Shown here in pieces: positions 3 through 9,720 of a stretch of 20,980 nucleotides of DNA. The position numbers were made by a program, and so were the translations under genes. A model generated the notes under the pieces. That model was not told the DNA's origin. It did not search any database and was given only the letters and a program-made list of their open reading frames with translations. Every line of letters starts with the position of its first letter. The stretch's first letter is position 1. This stretch comes from a virus: positions 1 through 20,980 of IMG/VR virus record IMGVR_UViG_3300026136_000022, one strand, 5' to 3'.

Positions 3-182
3 TATAAATTATTAATAGAAGAATATAAGAACGACATTCTTTTGTCACTCAGAATGGGAGTGCTGAAAGTGGATGAGTTAAAGTATCTGCTACAGCACTT
101 CAAGGATGAGGAGAACTATGAGGCTTGTCAAGGACTATCGAATGCTTACGTTCTATTTAAACAAGAGTTAGATGAATACTGA
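3..182 (+). CDS. Small hypothetical protein, 5' end outside window
   Basis: An open frame runs from the window edge to TGA at 180-182 and gives 59 residues with no visible start, so the gene is cut by the window. The translation is charged and probably helical, with segments such as LLIEEYKNDILL and LKYLLQHFKDEENYEA. No motif or signal is recognised. Its end overlaps the start of the DnaA-like gene (ATG at 172) by 11 nt, which is typical of the tight plus-strand packing here and suggests co-transcription. A short overlap-coupled ORF upstream of the terminase block fits an early or regulatory phage protein, but no function can be assigned. It could be the C-terminus of a longer protein. Confidence 0.6.
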   Translation, partial: YKLLIEEYKNDILLSLRMGVLKVDELKYLLQHFKDEENYEACQGLSNAYVLFKQELDEY

Positions 183-702
183 TTTTGATATATTAAGAGA
201 CATTACAAAAGAGGTTTGCAAGGCAGACCCAATGAAAAAAACAAGACAAAGGGAGGTTGTATATGCACGAATGATTATGTATAAAGTCCTGCATAGTTTC
301 CATAAACATACTTACACCAGAATAGGCAGGATGTTCGGAAAGAATCACGCCACCGTATTACATAGCATTAACCAGTTCGATAATATGGTTAGAAACGATG
401 ACTGGTTAAACAATAGATTCCACTGCGTTCTTAGTGAATACACAAAAGAGATTAGTTTACAGAACGAAGCTATTGCAGATGTGTATCTAAAGAATAAAAT
501 ACTTGAATCTAAACTGAAGGCGCAAAAAAGAATTATAAGACAGTGTAAGGAGATATCTGATGTTATTAATGGCGTACCTGAAGATAAGATAGAACAGATA
601 ACTCAAAAGCTCCGTATGCTTGTGGAGGTCGCTAAGAAAGAGATAAAGCCTCGTAATCAACAGACAGTAGTTTATAACTCTAATATAGTAACACACGAAT
701 GA
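172..702 (+). CDS. Standalone DnaA domain IV-like DNA-binding protein with coiled-coil tail
   Basis: This 176-residue protein resembles the C-terminal DNA-binding domain (domain IV) of DnaA. Residues about 5-75 contain the helix segment RQREVVYARMIMYKVL (25-40), then IGRMFGKNHATVLHSI (51-66). The latter matches the DnaA signature G-x-RDH(T/S)TVLHA in shape, with KNHA in place of RDHT. There is no AAA+ ATPase module, so it cannot act as an initiator ATPase on its own. Residues about 95-165 are Lys/Glu-rich and likely coiled coil, suggesting an oligomerisation tail. It sits a few small genes upstream of the terminases, overlapping both neighbours. A role as a sequence-specific DNA-binding protein (replication, transcription or packaging-site recognition) is inferred. 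The fold assignment is good, the role unknown. Confidence 0.8.
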   Translation: MNTDFDILRDITKEVCKADPMKKTRQREVVYARMIMYKVLHSFHKHTYTRIGRMFGKNHATVLHSINQFDNMVRNDDWLNNRFHCVLSEYTKEISLQNEAIADVYLKNKILESKLKAQKRIIRQCKEISDVINGVPEDKIEQITQKLRMLVEVAKKEIKPRNQQTVVYNSNIVTHE

Positions 703-2837: not shown

Positions 2838-3154
2838 AAGTTCTTTTTGTAGTTACTTCTTTCTACTTGCATCTTGTAGTATTCAAATCCCCTCATACCA
2901 GCTATATGTGAATCTGTAGGCACAAAGTACTTCCATCCTTTACTCATACCTTTATTTATATAGTAAAAGAAGAATGCAGCTAATTTACCTGTATTCTTTT
3001 CAAATATAACTGTTGCTGTAAAATCTGAAGTTGGTATAACCTCTTTTATTGAGAATGACTCTTTGTTAAAGTTACCTTCTCTGTCTTTCCTTGAGAATCT
3101 CGACTCTACTTCTTTTGCAAACGAGTCAAGTTCTTTAGCTATCGCTTTGTTCAT
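2834..3154 (-). CDS. Hypothetical protein, minus-strand accessory gene
   Basis: 106 residues on the minus strand. The first third is helical and charged (AIAKELDSFAKEVESRFSRKDREG). The rest looks like an alpha/beta domain with alternating strands (SDFTATVIFEKNTGKLAAFFFYYINKG) and ends in a basic tail. No signal peptide or clear membrane helix is seen; the FFFYY run is too short and is flanked by charge. Its start overlaps the end of the upstream minus-strand gene by 20 nt, so the two are probably co-transcribed and coupled. Its stop overlaps the terminase stop in the convergent direction (TTAG at 2834-2837). The family is not recognised. It may work with its diphosphohydrolase-like neighbour, but nothing in the sequence proves that. 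Confidence 0.7.
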   Translation of the reverse strand: MNKAIAKELDSFAKEVESRFSRKDREGNFNKESFSIKEVIPTSDFTATVIFEKNTGKLAAFFFYYINKGMSKGWKYFVPTDSHIAGMRGFEYYKMQVERSNYKKNF

Positions 3155-3536
3155 TTTCTATTTCCTTTTGTAAATTAGCAAGAGCTCTCCACGCTACTTT
3201 AGTTGAGTGGCGCACTCCATCTGTATCTATTGTACCAGCCTCAAGTAAGTGGCGAGTTAGTGCATCTAATTCATCGCCAGATTTACTTCTATCCCAGTGC
3301 AGAGGTTTATCTGGATTGTGTTGCTGATTTCCCATATAAGAACATTGAGCTACTTCTCTTATCGCATCAGGGAAATAATTAAGCACTCCACTGTAAACAG
3401 GTGTTTGCTTTCTTGTGAATTCAATAGGGGTCTCTGTAAATTCAATAGGGGTCGTTTCTTTTTCTTTCGCATACTCTATCGCCTCATCAAAATAGTCTCC
3501 TGTGAATTTAACACCCCCTGTATTGTTTTGTTCCAT
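3135..3536 (-). CDS. dATP/dGTP diphosphohydrolase N-terminal-type domain protein
   Basis: 133 residues on the minus strand. Residues about 48-127 (NYFPDAIREVAQCSYMGNQQHN, then LHWDRSKSGDELDALTRHL and DGVRHSTKVAWRALANLQKEIE) strongly resemble the phage domain named dATP/dGTP diphosphohydrolase N-terminal (formerly DUF5664). It is helical, rich in conserved His/Asp/Glu and related in use to MazG-like nucleotide hydrolases. A role in adjusting the phage dNTP pool is therefore suggested, but only this domain is present and activity is unproven. The N-terminal linker carries an exact-style 7-residue duplication, TPIEFTE/TPIEFTR (residues 29-42), plus a related KFTG at 10-13. These are encoded by the same AATTCAATAGGG-type repeat found in intergenic DNA. 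The next minus-strand gene overlaps its end. Confidence 0.75.
   Translation of the reverse strand: MEQNNTGGVKFTGDYFDEAIEYAKEKETTPIEFTETPIEFTRKQTPVYSGVLNYFPDAIREVAQCSYMGNQQHNPDKPLHWDRSKSGDELDALTRHLLEAGTIDTDGVRHSTKVAWRALANLQKEIENEQSDS
3417..3451. repeat. 21-nt tandem duplication of the AATTCAATAGGG repeat inside a coding region
   Basis: GAATTCAATAGGGG at 3417-3430 and AAATTCAATAGGGG at 3438-3451 are 21 nt apart, which equals seven codons, so the minus-strand reading frame is kept. They encode TPIEFT twice in the N-terminal linker of the diphosphohydrolase-like protein. The same motif occurs outside genes near 4621, 6038 and 18548. Confidence 0.8.
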
Positions 3537-5735: not shown

Positions 5736-5757
5736 GCCCTCTTCGGAGGGTTTTTTT
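5736..5757 (+). terminator. Strong rho-independent terminator
   Basis: CCCTC (5737-5741), a TTCG tetraloop and GAGGG (5746-5750) followed by seven T residues. It closes the small-gene block that begins at 3731/4931. A weaker ACCC...GGGT hairpin with a T run follows at about 5760-5786 and may act as a backup. Confidence 0.9.
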
Positions 5758-6037
5758 ATACCCTTATTTTTGTATGGGTTTTTTGTTATCTTGTTTTGTC
5801 TGAGGATTTTAATTTGTTTGGATGGGTTAAATTGATATTAAATAGGTATGTTTTTCTTCCGTTCTAAGCCCGTTTCTCTCTCCCAACCATACCAACATAC
5901 CACACAATCCCTAAAGTGGCTTAAAATAGCCCTTAAAATGCGTTTATGAGGGTTTTATTGACTACTCTCCCCGTAATGACACCAGAGTGGATAATATATC
6001 CCAACTCTACACATACCTCAATCTCCATCTGCCAACT
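5758..6037. other. Gene-free stretch between terminator and next promoter
   Basis: No supported ORF. An open frame beginning at 5987 is only the upstream extension of the gene at 6086. A hairpin at 5930-5952 (CCCTTA...TATGAGGG with one internal mismatch) followed by TTTT could be a weak plus-strand terminator. Nothing else is recognised. Confidence 0.55.
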
Positions 6038-6068
6038 GAATTCAATACCCTTGTGAATCTAATAGGTA
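6038..6068. repeat. Paired AATTCAATA / AATCTAATAGG repeat over a promoter
   Basis: GAATTCAATACCCT at 6038-6051 and GAATCTAATAGGTA at 6055-6068, 17 nt apart. The same pair in the same order and spacing occurs at 18548-18578. The second copy lies in the spacer of the promoter at 6050-6080. AATACC (6044-6049) and GGTATT (6064-6069) are also inverted repeats. Confidence 0.75.
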
Positions 6069-6080
6069 TTTCGTATATTT
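6050..6080 (+). promoter_or_regulatory. Bacteroidota promoter, nearly leaderless
   Basis: CTTG at 6050-6053 and TATATTTG at 6073-6080 with a 19-nt spacer. The ATG of the next gene is at 6086, only 5 nt after the -7 element, so the transcript may be leaderless or have a leader of a few bases. One copy of the dispersed repeat occupies the spacer and could act as an operator. Confidence 0.7.
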
Positions 6081-6085
6081 GTATT

Positions 6086-6331
6086 ATGGCAAAGCGTAAG
6101 AAAAAAACAATCAATCTACAGAATCACCCAGAATCCTTAAAAGCATTTAGCTGGTGTCTGGAAAGAAACATACGAATCTACCCAATCCCATCTGCCACAC
6201 AGTATCAAATAGTAATTGATAATGGCGTATCAAAGATAGTTTCGCCCAAACTATACGATAAGACTGAGTGGTCTGATAAAATATGGGAGTTATACAGACA
6301 TTTTTACAACGAAAATAAAGTTTCAGTATAA
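6086..6331 (+). CDS. Hypothetical 81-residue basic protein on its own promoter
   Basis: The open frame reaches back to 5987, but the -7 promoter element ends at 6080, so the start at ATG 6086 is chosen (MAKRKKKTINLQNHPESLKAF), giving 81 residues. The N-terminus is very basic (KRKKK) and could contact nucleic acid. The rest looks like a compact domain (FSWCLERNIRIYPIPSATQYQIVIDNGVSKIVSP, then WSDKIWELYRHFY). It is a single gene with its own promoter and repeat pair. The TACAATGTA array begins one base after its stop codon. That placement makes it a candidate DNA-binding regulator of the array, but this is inference only. Confidence 0.65.
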   Translation: MAKRKKKTINLQNHPESLKAFSWCLERNIRIYPIPSATQYQIVIDNGVSKIVSPKLYDKTEWSDKIWELYRHFYNENKVSV

Positions 6332-6457
6332 TACAATGTATAGAAGAGTACAATGTACTGTAATATACAATGTATATATATTATTTTTATACTGTACAAT
6401 GTACCCTACTGTACAATGTACTATATATAATACAATGTACTCTACTATACTAATGTA
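6332..6457. repeat. Iteron-like array of TACAATGTA palindromes at about 17-bp spacing
   Basis: Six exact copies of TACAATGTA start at 6332, 6349, 6366, 6395, 6412 and 6431, with an imperfect seventh (TACTAATGTA) at 6448. Spacings are 17, 17, 29, 17, 19 and 17 bp. Each 9-mer is a palindrome around its central A. In five of six copies the flanking bases extend it to 11 bp (ATACAATGTAT or GTACAATGTAC), with the flanks changing together. The array is non-coding, between the stop at 6331 and the tail operon start at 6519. This looks like a cluster of binding sites for a dimeric protein: origin, partition, operator or packaging site are all possible. Confidence 0.9.
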
Positions 6458-6518
6458 TTATATATTGTGCCATACAGACAGTTGGGCGAACACTAATAGA
6501 AACATAAGTTAATTTAAT

Positions 6519-7232
6519 ATGGCGAATAACGTACAAATAGAACTATCCGTTCCAGACGCACTTTCTGACATAACACTCGGTCAGTATCAAAAGTATTTAA
6601 AGATACTTGACCAGAACAAAGATGATGATAACGCAGCAGAGTTTATCAATATGAAGACTATTGAGATATTTTGTGATGTTGACTTCAAAGACGTATTGAA
6701 GATTCCTTTAGGTGAGGCGGAAAAGGTACTCACAATCATTAACAAGGCGTTTGAAGAGAAACCTGATATTATACGCCACTTCAAACTACTTAACGTAGAT
6801 ATGGGCTTTATACCAAACTTAGAGCGTATATCTCTTGGCGAGTATATTGATGTAGAAAATAACATAGTGGACTGGCAAACAATGCACAAAGCTATGGCAG
6901 TGCTGTACAGACCAGTCAACTTTAAGAGTAAAGAGAAATATACGATTGCGCCATACGAACCAAGTGATGAGGTATCTGAACTAATGAAAGAGATGCCACT
7001 CGATGTATCTATGAGTTCTATGGTTTTTTTTTACGATTTAGGGATGGAGTTACTGAAAGCTATTCCGACCTTTATACAGAAAAATCTGACGGAGGAACAG
7101 ACTTATCTGCTCAAGCAAACTTTGGCTCAAAGTGGGGTTGGTATCAATCAATTTACGCACTTGCTGGAGGGGATGTCCTTAAATTCAATGAGGTTACCGA
7201 GAGTCCACTCTTCCAATGCCTCACCTACCTAA
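6519..7232 (+). CDS. Tail assembly chaperone, short (unshifted) form
   Basis: 237 residues, first gene of the tail module. The sequence (LSVPDALSDITLGQYQKYLKIL; FKLLNVDMGFIPNLERISLGEYIDVENNI; MHKAMAVLYRPV) has the helical character of Bacteroidota-phage tail assembly chaperones. These bind the tape measure during tail assembly and are absent from the virion. At 7024-7032 the gene crosses nine T residues; in-frame reading continues FYDLGMELLKAIPTFIQKNLTEEQ to TAA at 7230-7232. The same DNA in the -1 frame encodes an equally protein-like C-terminus, so this is the G-like partner of a G/GT-type pair. No promoter is obvious upstream; the palindrome array ends 62 nt before the start. Family assignment rests on context and the frameshift layout. 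Confidence 0.8.
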   Translation: MANNVQIELSVPDALSDITLGQYQKYLKILDQNKDDDNAAEFINMKTIEIFCDVDFKDVLKIPLGEAEKVLTIINKAFEEKPDIIRHFKLLNVDMGFIPNLERISLGEYIDVENNIVDWQTMHKAMAVLYRPVNFKSKEKYTIAPYEPSDEVSELMKEMPLDVSMSSMVFFYDLGMELLKAIPTFIQKNLTEEQTYLLKQTLAQSGVGINQFTHLLEGMSLNSMRLPRVHSSNASPT

Positions 7233-8322: not shown

Positions 8323-9720
8323 ATGGCACAAATAATCAATACAAGGAGTCCGTTTTACATAAAAGTGTCAGATAGTTCACTTGCAACTGCTACACTTAAG
8401 CTATACATATATGATGGCTCAAAAAATACAGGGAGTCCTAACGATGCGGATTTAAAATACACTATAACTAAATCAGAGCTTGAAAACAACGACTATGTTG
8501 TATTTGAGATATCAGAGCTTATAAGAGATTATATTGACGTAAAATATGATGGAGAGTATGATAGCTATTGCGTATGGGTGATGTTTGATATCGATGTTAC
8601 AAGTGGAAGTGGTGATGAGATTTTTGAATGGACATCAACGCCACCTGACCTACAAAATACATTGGCAGCATCGGGTACTGCAACAGGAACATCAACAAAC
8701 AAACTTATAGATAGTTCTGCCTCATTTACATCAACAGTTCAAGTTGGAGATATTGCTGTAGAAGACCAAAGTGGGTATGTTACTACTGTAACTTCTGTTG
8801 ATTCAAATACTCAATTGACATTAGACGATAATATATATCAGTCAGGCTCTGGGTATTTTATATACAGGAGGTCATACCTTAATATGATAGCAACAGAAGG
8901 GTATGGCTACTTTGAAGAGGGTGTAAATCCTGAACCAAGCCGCACACTACTTCAGTCAAACAAGATAATTTATCGACCAAGTGATTACAATGTAAATATA
9001 CCAATCTTTGCGGAAGACACAACTTCGGTTACTTATTTTTATAATAACATAGAAATTAGAACAGACACTATATCTGATGACGATAACACCAATCAAAAGA
9101 TTCAATACATATACTCTTATGTAAATTCAGACACAGATACATATCAAGAGAGGGTTTTGAATGATGGAGGAACACTTGAAGAATCAGTATGCTTGGATAG
9201 ATTTCTTAGAAATGTAGAAACGAGTCCAGTAGATAAAATAATAATAAATTCAAGCGGCTCGCCTGAAGTTGTAGAAATAAGAACGCTCGATTGCTCTATA
9301 TACGACCCAATCAAAGTCACCTTTGTAAATAAATATGGCGCACTACAGGATTTGTGGTTTGACAAGAAAAGTATGAATTCAATAAACGTGCAGTCAAACG
9401 ATTACAAGGCTTCTGTAATGGATTTCTCTTCTACGCCAACATATGATACCTCCGCACACCAGAATAGAGTATTAGATTTAGTAGGTAAAGAAAGTATCAC
9501 AATGAACACTGGTTATATAGATGAAGAGTACAATGAAGTGTTCAGGCAACTTATGCTATCAGAGCAAGTTTGGATGACAAAATTAACTGACACCGAAGAG
9601 GTATTCCCTTTACGCCCAAAAACACAATCGTTACAATTCAAAACCAGAACTAACGACAAGCTCGTAAACTATACAGTAGAATTTGACTTTGCGTTTGATA
9701 AGATAAACACTATTCGATAA
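8323..9720 (+). CDS. Tail structural protein with inserted small beta module
   Basis: 465 residues, beta-rich. The N-terminus (MAQIINTRSPFYIKVSDSSLATATLKLYIYDG; FEISELIRDYIDVKYDGEYDSYCVWVMFDID) is typical of large structural proteins in flavobacterial phage tail modules. Residues about 125-181 (NKLIDSSASFTSTVQVGDIAV, then TTVTSVDSNTQLTLDDNI and GSGYFIYR) are a compact VGD-containing beta module, bordered by Ser/Thr/Gly linkers. It looks inserted and has a relative in the next gene. The C-terminal half (TSVTYFYNNIEIRTDTISDDD onwards) resembles the main domain again. Probably part of the tail tip or distal tail; exact role unknown. Stop and next start overlap by one base. Confidence 0.7.
   Translation: MAQIINTRSPFYIKVSDSSLATATLKLYIYDGSKNTGSPNDADLKYTITKSELENNDYVVFEISELIRDYIDVKYDGEYDSYCVWVMFDIDVTSGSGDEIFEWTSTPPDLQNTLAASGTATGTSTNKLIDSSASFTSTVQVGDIAVEDQSGYVTTVTSVDSNTQLTLDDNIYQSGSGYFIYRRSYLNMIATEGYGYFEEGVNPEPSRTLLQSNKIIYRPSDYNVNIPIFAEDTTSVTYFYNNIEIRTDTISDDDNTNQKIQYIYSYVNSDTDTYQERVLNDGGTLEESVCLDRFLRNVETSPVDKIIINSSGSPEVVEIRTLDCSIYDPIKVTFVNKYGALQDLWFDKKSMNSINVQSNDYKASVMDFSSTPTYDTSAHQNRVLDLVGKESITMNTGYIDEEYNEVFRQLMLSEQVWMTKLTDTEEVFPLRPKTQSLQFKTRTNDKLVNYTVEFDFAFDKINTIR

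Follow-up and report, generated by a model that had tools for sequence, protein, structure and literature searches.

The window, by which we mean the whole 20,980-base fragment of DNA from an uncultured phage that makes up the record analyzed here, contains a cluster of short palindromic sites (array 1) that takes up the space from the stop codon of an 81-aa gene to the start of the late operon. The features of the window that bear on this array are:

172..702, plus strand: gene for a phage protein with a DnaA domain IV and, by prediction, a long coiled-coil tail; a candidate, disfavoured, for the protein that reads the array
5736..5765, plus strand: hairpins resembling intrinsic terminators, ahead of the 6086 gene, which they set apart from the preceding genes
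6051..6081, plus strand: predicted Bacteroidota-type promoter, TTG-N20-TATATTTG, whose spacing puts the start at the ATG at 6086 (leaderless, predicted)
6086..6331, plus strand: gene for a small basic protein of 81 aa; its stop codon abuts the array, and in those relatives that include this region a homologue stands ahead of array 1
6332..6457, no strand assigned: array 1, six exact TACAATGTA sites and a degenerate seventh (TACTAATGTA, 6448-6457)
6375..6394, no strand assigned: AT-rich stretch that parts site 3 from site 4 (90% A+T)
6462..6492, plus strand: block TATATTGTGCCATACAGACAGTTGG (TATAT-n-TGCC), lying after array 1 and ahead of the late operon; it can be recognised in every motif class
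6519..7232, plus strand: opening gene of the structural (tail/head) operon that follows array 1 (phrog_32199, 1.8e-17)

The original prediction described six exact palindromes and an imperfect seventh, beginning right behind the stop codon of a small basic protein gene and preceding the tail operon, and all of these elements were located where it had placed them. The exact copies of TACAATGTA start at 6332, 6349, 6366, 6395, 6412 and 6431 on the plus strand (span 6332-6439), with steps of 17, 17, 29, 17 and 19 bp; the proposed 17-bp spacing therefore holds for three of the five steps, the others being 29 and 19 bp, and the 29-bp step contains the AT-rich gap attributed to it. One further exact copy, also correctly noted, lies at 8986-8994 within the gene at 8323-9720 and is probably due to chance. 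Whether base composition alone could produce such a cluster was assessed by shuffling: the whole window is expected to hold 0.35 copies of TACAATGTA (100 shuffles; s.d. 0.61, largest 3), and in 300 Markov shuffles of the window the largest cluster of any odd 9-bp palindrome per 125 bp was 3, against the 6 observed. The proposal that the flanks covary to maintain an 11-bp palindrome fared less well, because the flank pairs are complementary at five of the six sites in the window but palindromic at only 21 of 44 distinct sites in relatives carrying the same motif (motif A, below), against 20.8 expected if the two sides were independent; across these relatives the left flank is a purine and the right a pyrimidine, uncoupled. 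A search of Rfam returned only sub-threshold chance matches to AT-rich microRNA models.

The 6086 gene appears to be transcribed from its own promoter, as previously suggested, since the element at 6051..6081 fits the Bacteroidota promoter consensus TTG-N20-TANNTTTG (consensus and numbering from PMC6847099). In most of the relatives examined, a promoter of this Bacteroidota type sits 12 nt ahead of the ATG of Erf and of the homologue of the 6086 gene, so leaderless transcripts are predicted; the distance from the host-type -7 box to the ATG is exactly 12 nt both for the 6086 gene (window 6051-6088) and for the Erf homologues (L241 3102-3114). Each array closes a promoter-led unit, one comprising the Erf, SSB-like and winged-helix genes followed by a second array (array 2, below), the other the 6086 gene followed by array 1. 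The 6086-6331 product, one of two suggested binders of the array, matched no DNA-binding family; indeed, no family was found for it, with phrog_5945 appearing only at an E value of 0.05. The block TATATTGTGCCATACAGACAGTTGG is a possible late promoter or leader element, perhaps for a phage sigma-like factor. A candidate for such a factor, at L241 6374-6922, is found in all classes, with weak Pfam matches to regions 2 and 4 and a match to the PHROG RNA polymerase sigma factor at 6.8e-6. A CAGTTGG element is common to the Erf promoter region (TGTCAGTTGG; L241 ~3086-3098) and to the leader that follows array 1 (window 6480-6492) across motif classes, and is perhaps another regulatory element that the two have in common.

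A motif pattern scan of viral contigs fetched relatives of the window, and among the matches listed more than a dozen related contigs have array 1 in the corresponding position; this count is a lower bound. Single copies of the site decay in these relatives while the spacing grid is retained. Thus, the 17-46-19 spacing seen in several of them equals 17-(29+17)-19, because one site is degenerate, and the seventh site, TACTAATGTA, is kept in this or a very similar form by most. Two genomes (G003 and G010) have an extra single site ~60 bp ahead of the homologue of the 6086 gene, just upstream of its promoter. No DNA-level match to the window was found among cultured phages. The nearest of these by terminase are the Nonlabens phages P12024S/L (56%), whose replication module is different, and one genome contig, from a Bacteroidetes MAG, carries a relative (primase-helicase 67%) from which the intergenic region of array 2 is absent. 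Taken together, the promoter type, the MAG contig and the nearest cultured terminases suggest that the host is probably a member of the Bacteroidota. Among phages that encode DnaA-like proteins but are more distantly related, a broad scan turned up essentially no palindromic arrays. Two unrelated contigs do carry paired sites behind a stop codon: a 5.4-kb contig with two TACATTGTA sites 17 bp apart (L264, G015, 3426-3451), which was matched on motif alone and encodes a DnaA-IV-like protein with NRNHAS, and a phage contig with two TACACTTAGTGTA palindromes 21 bp apart just behind the stop codon (L361 3224-3257).

In relatives of ~33-34 kb, a second array with the same motif lies between a gene for a 99-aa winged-helix protein (L241 3977-4276, for example) and the primase-helicase gene, its first site usually falling within the final codons of the former. 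The window contains neither array 2 nor the winged-helix gene, and the two arrays are more than 10 kb apart. Every genome that holds both arrays uses a single motif in the two, and this motif varies by lineage, being TACANTGTA, TACACTTAGTGTA or GATACAT(G/A)TTA. The classes are:

Motif A, TACANTGTA: window-type relatives, including G013
Motif B, TACACTTAGTGTA: G005, and G008 for array 1
Motif C, GATACATGTTA: G006 and many others
Motif D, GATACATATTA: G009 and others
ATAGTACTAT-like sites, array 1 only: G017 and G019

The steps in the two arrays are 19, 16, 30, 17, 19 and 19, 17, 30, 19, 18 in the motif-A genome G013, and 19, 16, 29, 19, 19 and 19, 19, 30, 19, 19 in the motif-B genome G005. Thus, a layout in which a 29-30 bp AT-rich gap divides two groups of three sites, matched in the window by the interval at 6375..6394 and its flanking sites, outlives the change from motif A to motif B. 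We claim the full layout for motifs A and B only, site calls with mismatches being noisy for motifs C and D; these two may represent one specificity, because motif-C arrays usually include a D-like site.

Comparison of G013 with G005 provides a natural mosaic, this test resting on one genome (G013). Most replication and packaging genes of the pair are 82-99% identical at the protein level, with drops in the SSB-like protein (52%), the winged-helix protein (74%) and the DnaA-like protein (47%); the tail genes vary as well. At the nucleotide level, identity is low across the SSB-like gene, the winged-helix gene, array 2 and the primase N-terminus, and is 52% over array 1, where the flanks are better conserved. 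The motif change therefore coincides with replacement of the block holding the SSB-like gene, the winged-helix gene and array 2, and the drop in identity from the SSB-like gene to the primase N-terminus most simply places the reader within that block. Two arrays, a shared motif, its concerted change, a conserved geometry and the linkage of that change to the swapped block are all shown by the sequences.

These comparisons indicate that the paired binding-array system is real and under selection. Conservation, the matched second array and the concerted change of motif together give good support for reading array 1 as a selected array of dimer-type sites that would act either as an origin or as a multi-operator switch. 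As for a multi-operator switch, the sites, their positions and their concerted change are present, with binding by one protein putative. Of the four functions originally offered (origin, partition, packaging or switch), the first and last are the candidates, and no evidence for a pac or partition site was found.

The winged-helix protein, encoded outside the window, is the best candidate for the reader, judging by its fold and its place in the swapped block. Its best Pfam match is HTH_36 (7.6e-10), and it also matches phage replication initiation proteins (1.4e-11) and the winged-helix fold; its PHROG O-like matches are weak (2.7e-4 and weaker), and no significant match to the Lambda O family (Pfam Phage_rep_O) was obtained. 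In the scheme we favor, the two arrays would be a matched six-site pair for one phage-encoded, probably dimeric, DNA-binding protein. The winged-helix protein would be made early from a host-type promoter and fill array 2, there controlling the replication operon and/or starting replication; as its level rises, it would fill array 1 and so come to control entry into the late operon. In this scheme we infer the part of the winged-helix protein as reader, its binding as a dimer and its effect on transcription or replication. Three observations count against the assignment. The protein is 79% identical to clade A in motif-B G005 and 70% in motif-A G013, so that its recognition helix does not visibly track the motif; identical recognition helices occur with motifs C and D; and the co-swapped block also includes the SSB-like gene and the primase N-terminus. 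Overall, we give about an even chance that an initiator-like winged-helix protein reads both arrays and couples the replication and late units, and we rank this ahead of arrays that serve only as origins, which in turn we place ahead of a DnaA-like reader.

The leading alternative, which we regard as a possible but distinctly less probable explanation, keeps the winged-helix protein as an initiator and makes both arrays iteron-type origins bound by it, with no direct role in transcription and with array 1 as a second or late origin. Array 2 does adjoin both the initiator-like winged-helix gene and the primase-helicase gene, the repeated sites with an AT-rich segment recall the lambda origin iterons, and the co-swapped SSB-like gene, winged-helix gene, array 2 and primase N-terminus resemble a replication-specificity module. 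However, an initiator gene stands beside repeated sites only at array 2, which begins inside the winged-helix gene or right behind it, whereas array 1 is far from the replication genes and heads the late operon in the relatives examined. GC skew shows no switch at either array in three near-complete relatives, weak evidence because gene direction is uniform.

The second suggested binder, the product of 172-702, is a true DnaA domain IV (Pfam, 3.9e-11; PDB 1J1V, 1.3e-11; top Foldseek matches to DnaA-DNA complexes), and its predicted long helix could dimerise. It could therefore act as a coiled-coil dimer on inverted, DnaA-box-like half sites, a proposal that we consider unlikely. In its favor, the DnaA-like protein has the largest contrast between within-class and between-class identity (61% vs. 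35%) among genes present in every class, and its recognition helix reads NHAT(V/I)L(H/Y)S in motif-A phages, including the distant G013, and DHATVI(H/Y)G in motif B. The helix thus follows the motif for A, B and G013, a pattern that other genomes contradict. Contig 3300021356_002066 has a motif-B array 1 and is motif-B-like around that array and in the genes flanking the DnaA-like gene, yet carries the G013-type NHAT allele; motif C includes both QNHAT and QDHAT, and motifs C and D share DnaA-like helices. Because of the swapped allele, the DnaA-like gene is not tied to the motif of array 1, unless the contig is chimeric. The gene is also the fastest diverging of the early genes, and the G013-type swap in this contig is gene-sized (L137/L271 1493-2032).

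Somewhat less probable again is a different reader: the SSB-like protein, the zinc-binding N-terminus of the primase, the sigma-like factor or a host protein. Identity of the SSB-like protein tracks the motif best of the genes tested (A-G013 76%, A-B 57%, G013-B 52%), but it matched no sequence-specific DNA-binding family; the primase N-terminus falls inside the swapped block. The sigma-like factor keeps 89% identity from G013 to G005 although the motif differs, and a host reader would leave the link between motif change and phage genes unexplained. Repeated palindromic sites at fixed places would also suit a packaging (pac) or partition site, which we consider very improbable: across the complete A/B motif change the TerS-like gene, next to TerL, is conserved at 82-89% and TerL at 92%, the arrays lie several kb from terS rather than beside it, and no parA/parB-like gene was recognised among the genes scanned. 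Chance or functionless expansion of a simple repeat, which the AT-rich region (76%) and its near-identical copies might suggest, has a negligible probability given the shuffling results, the conserved place and geometry, and the concerted motif change at two loci, and is effectively refuted by the matched second array.

The system shares features with several known ones. Like Lambda O and the ori-lambda iterons (PMC3349717), it has an initiator-type gene beside repeated sites with an AT-rich segment, and initiator and sites are likely exchanged as a module. In contrast to the four 18-bp iterons of Lambda, the sites here are of 9-13 bp at 16-19 bp steps, the AT-rich segment is inside the array, there are two separate arrays, one of them before late genes, and the 99-aa winged-helix protein is without the rest of O. 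The phi29 p4 switch (PMC3100819) offers a possible parallel, that of one early phage protein that could bind early and late control regions and switch expression; the phi29 regions are adjacent whereas the present arrays are more than 10 kb apart. The stoperators of Cluster A mycobacteriophages (PMC9283540, PMC6550527) are similar in that one phage protein has many identical sites in intergenic DNA that is transcribed, and in that site and reader diverge together. They are asymmetric and dispersed in the direction of transcription, whereas the present sites are palindromic and clustered at two loci, and in this respect the arrays do not fit stoperators; no repressor or integrase was recognised among the genes examined. 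With bacterial oriC and its DnaA boxes the likeness lies in the phage-encoded DnaA domain IV and in (A/G)TACA half sites that may loosely resemble part of TTATNCACA. It differs in that no full DnaA protein was found, the arrays consist of palindromes and, in 3300021356_002066, the DnaA-like allele is uncoupled from the motif.

We tentatively suggest that an initiator-like protein reading both matched arrays couples replication to late expression through a rapidly re-coded alphabet, exchanged between phages as a reader together with its arrays. These phages form a natural series in which a binding-site alphabet has been rewritten at two places at once while the spacing stayed fixed, and offer a way to study how specificity shifts jointly in a regulator and a dozen sites. 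If the initiator also gates the late genes, it would couple replication to late expression simply and directly, in phages of a group that has received little study.
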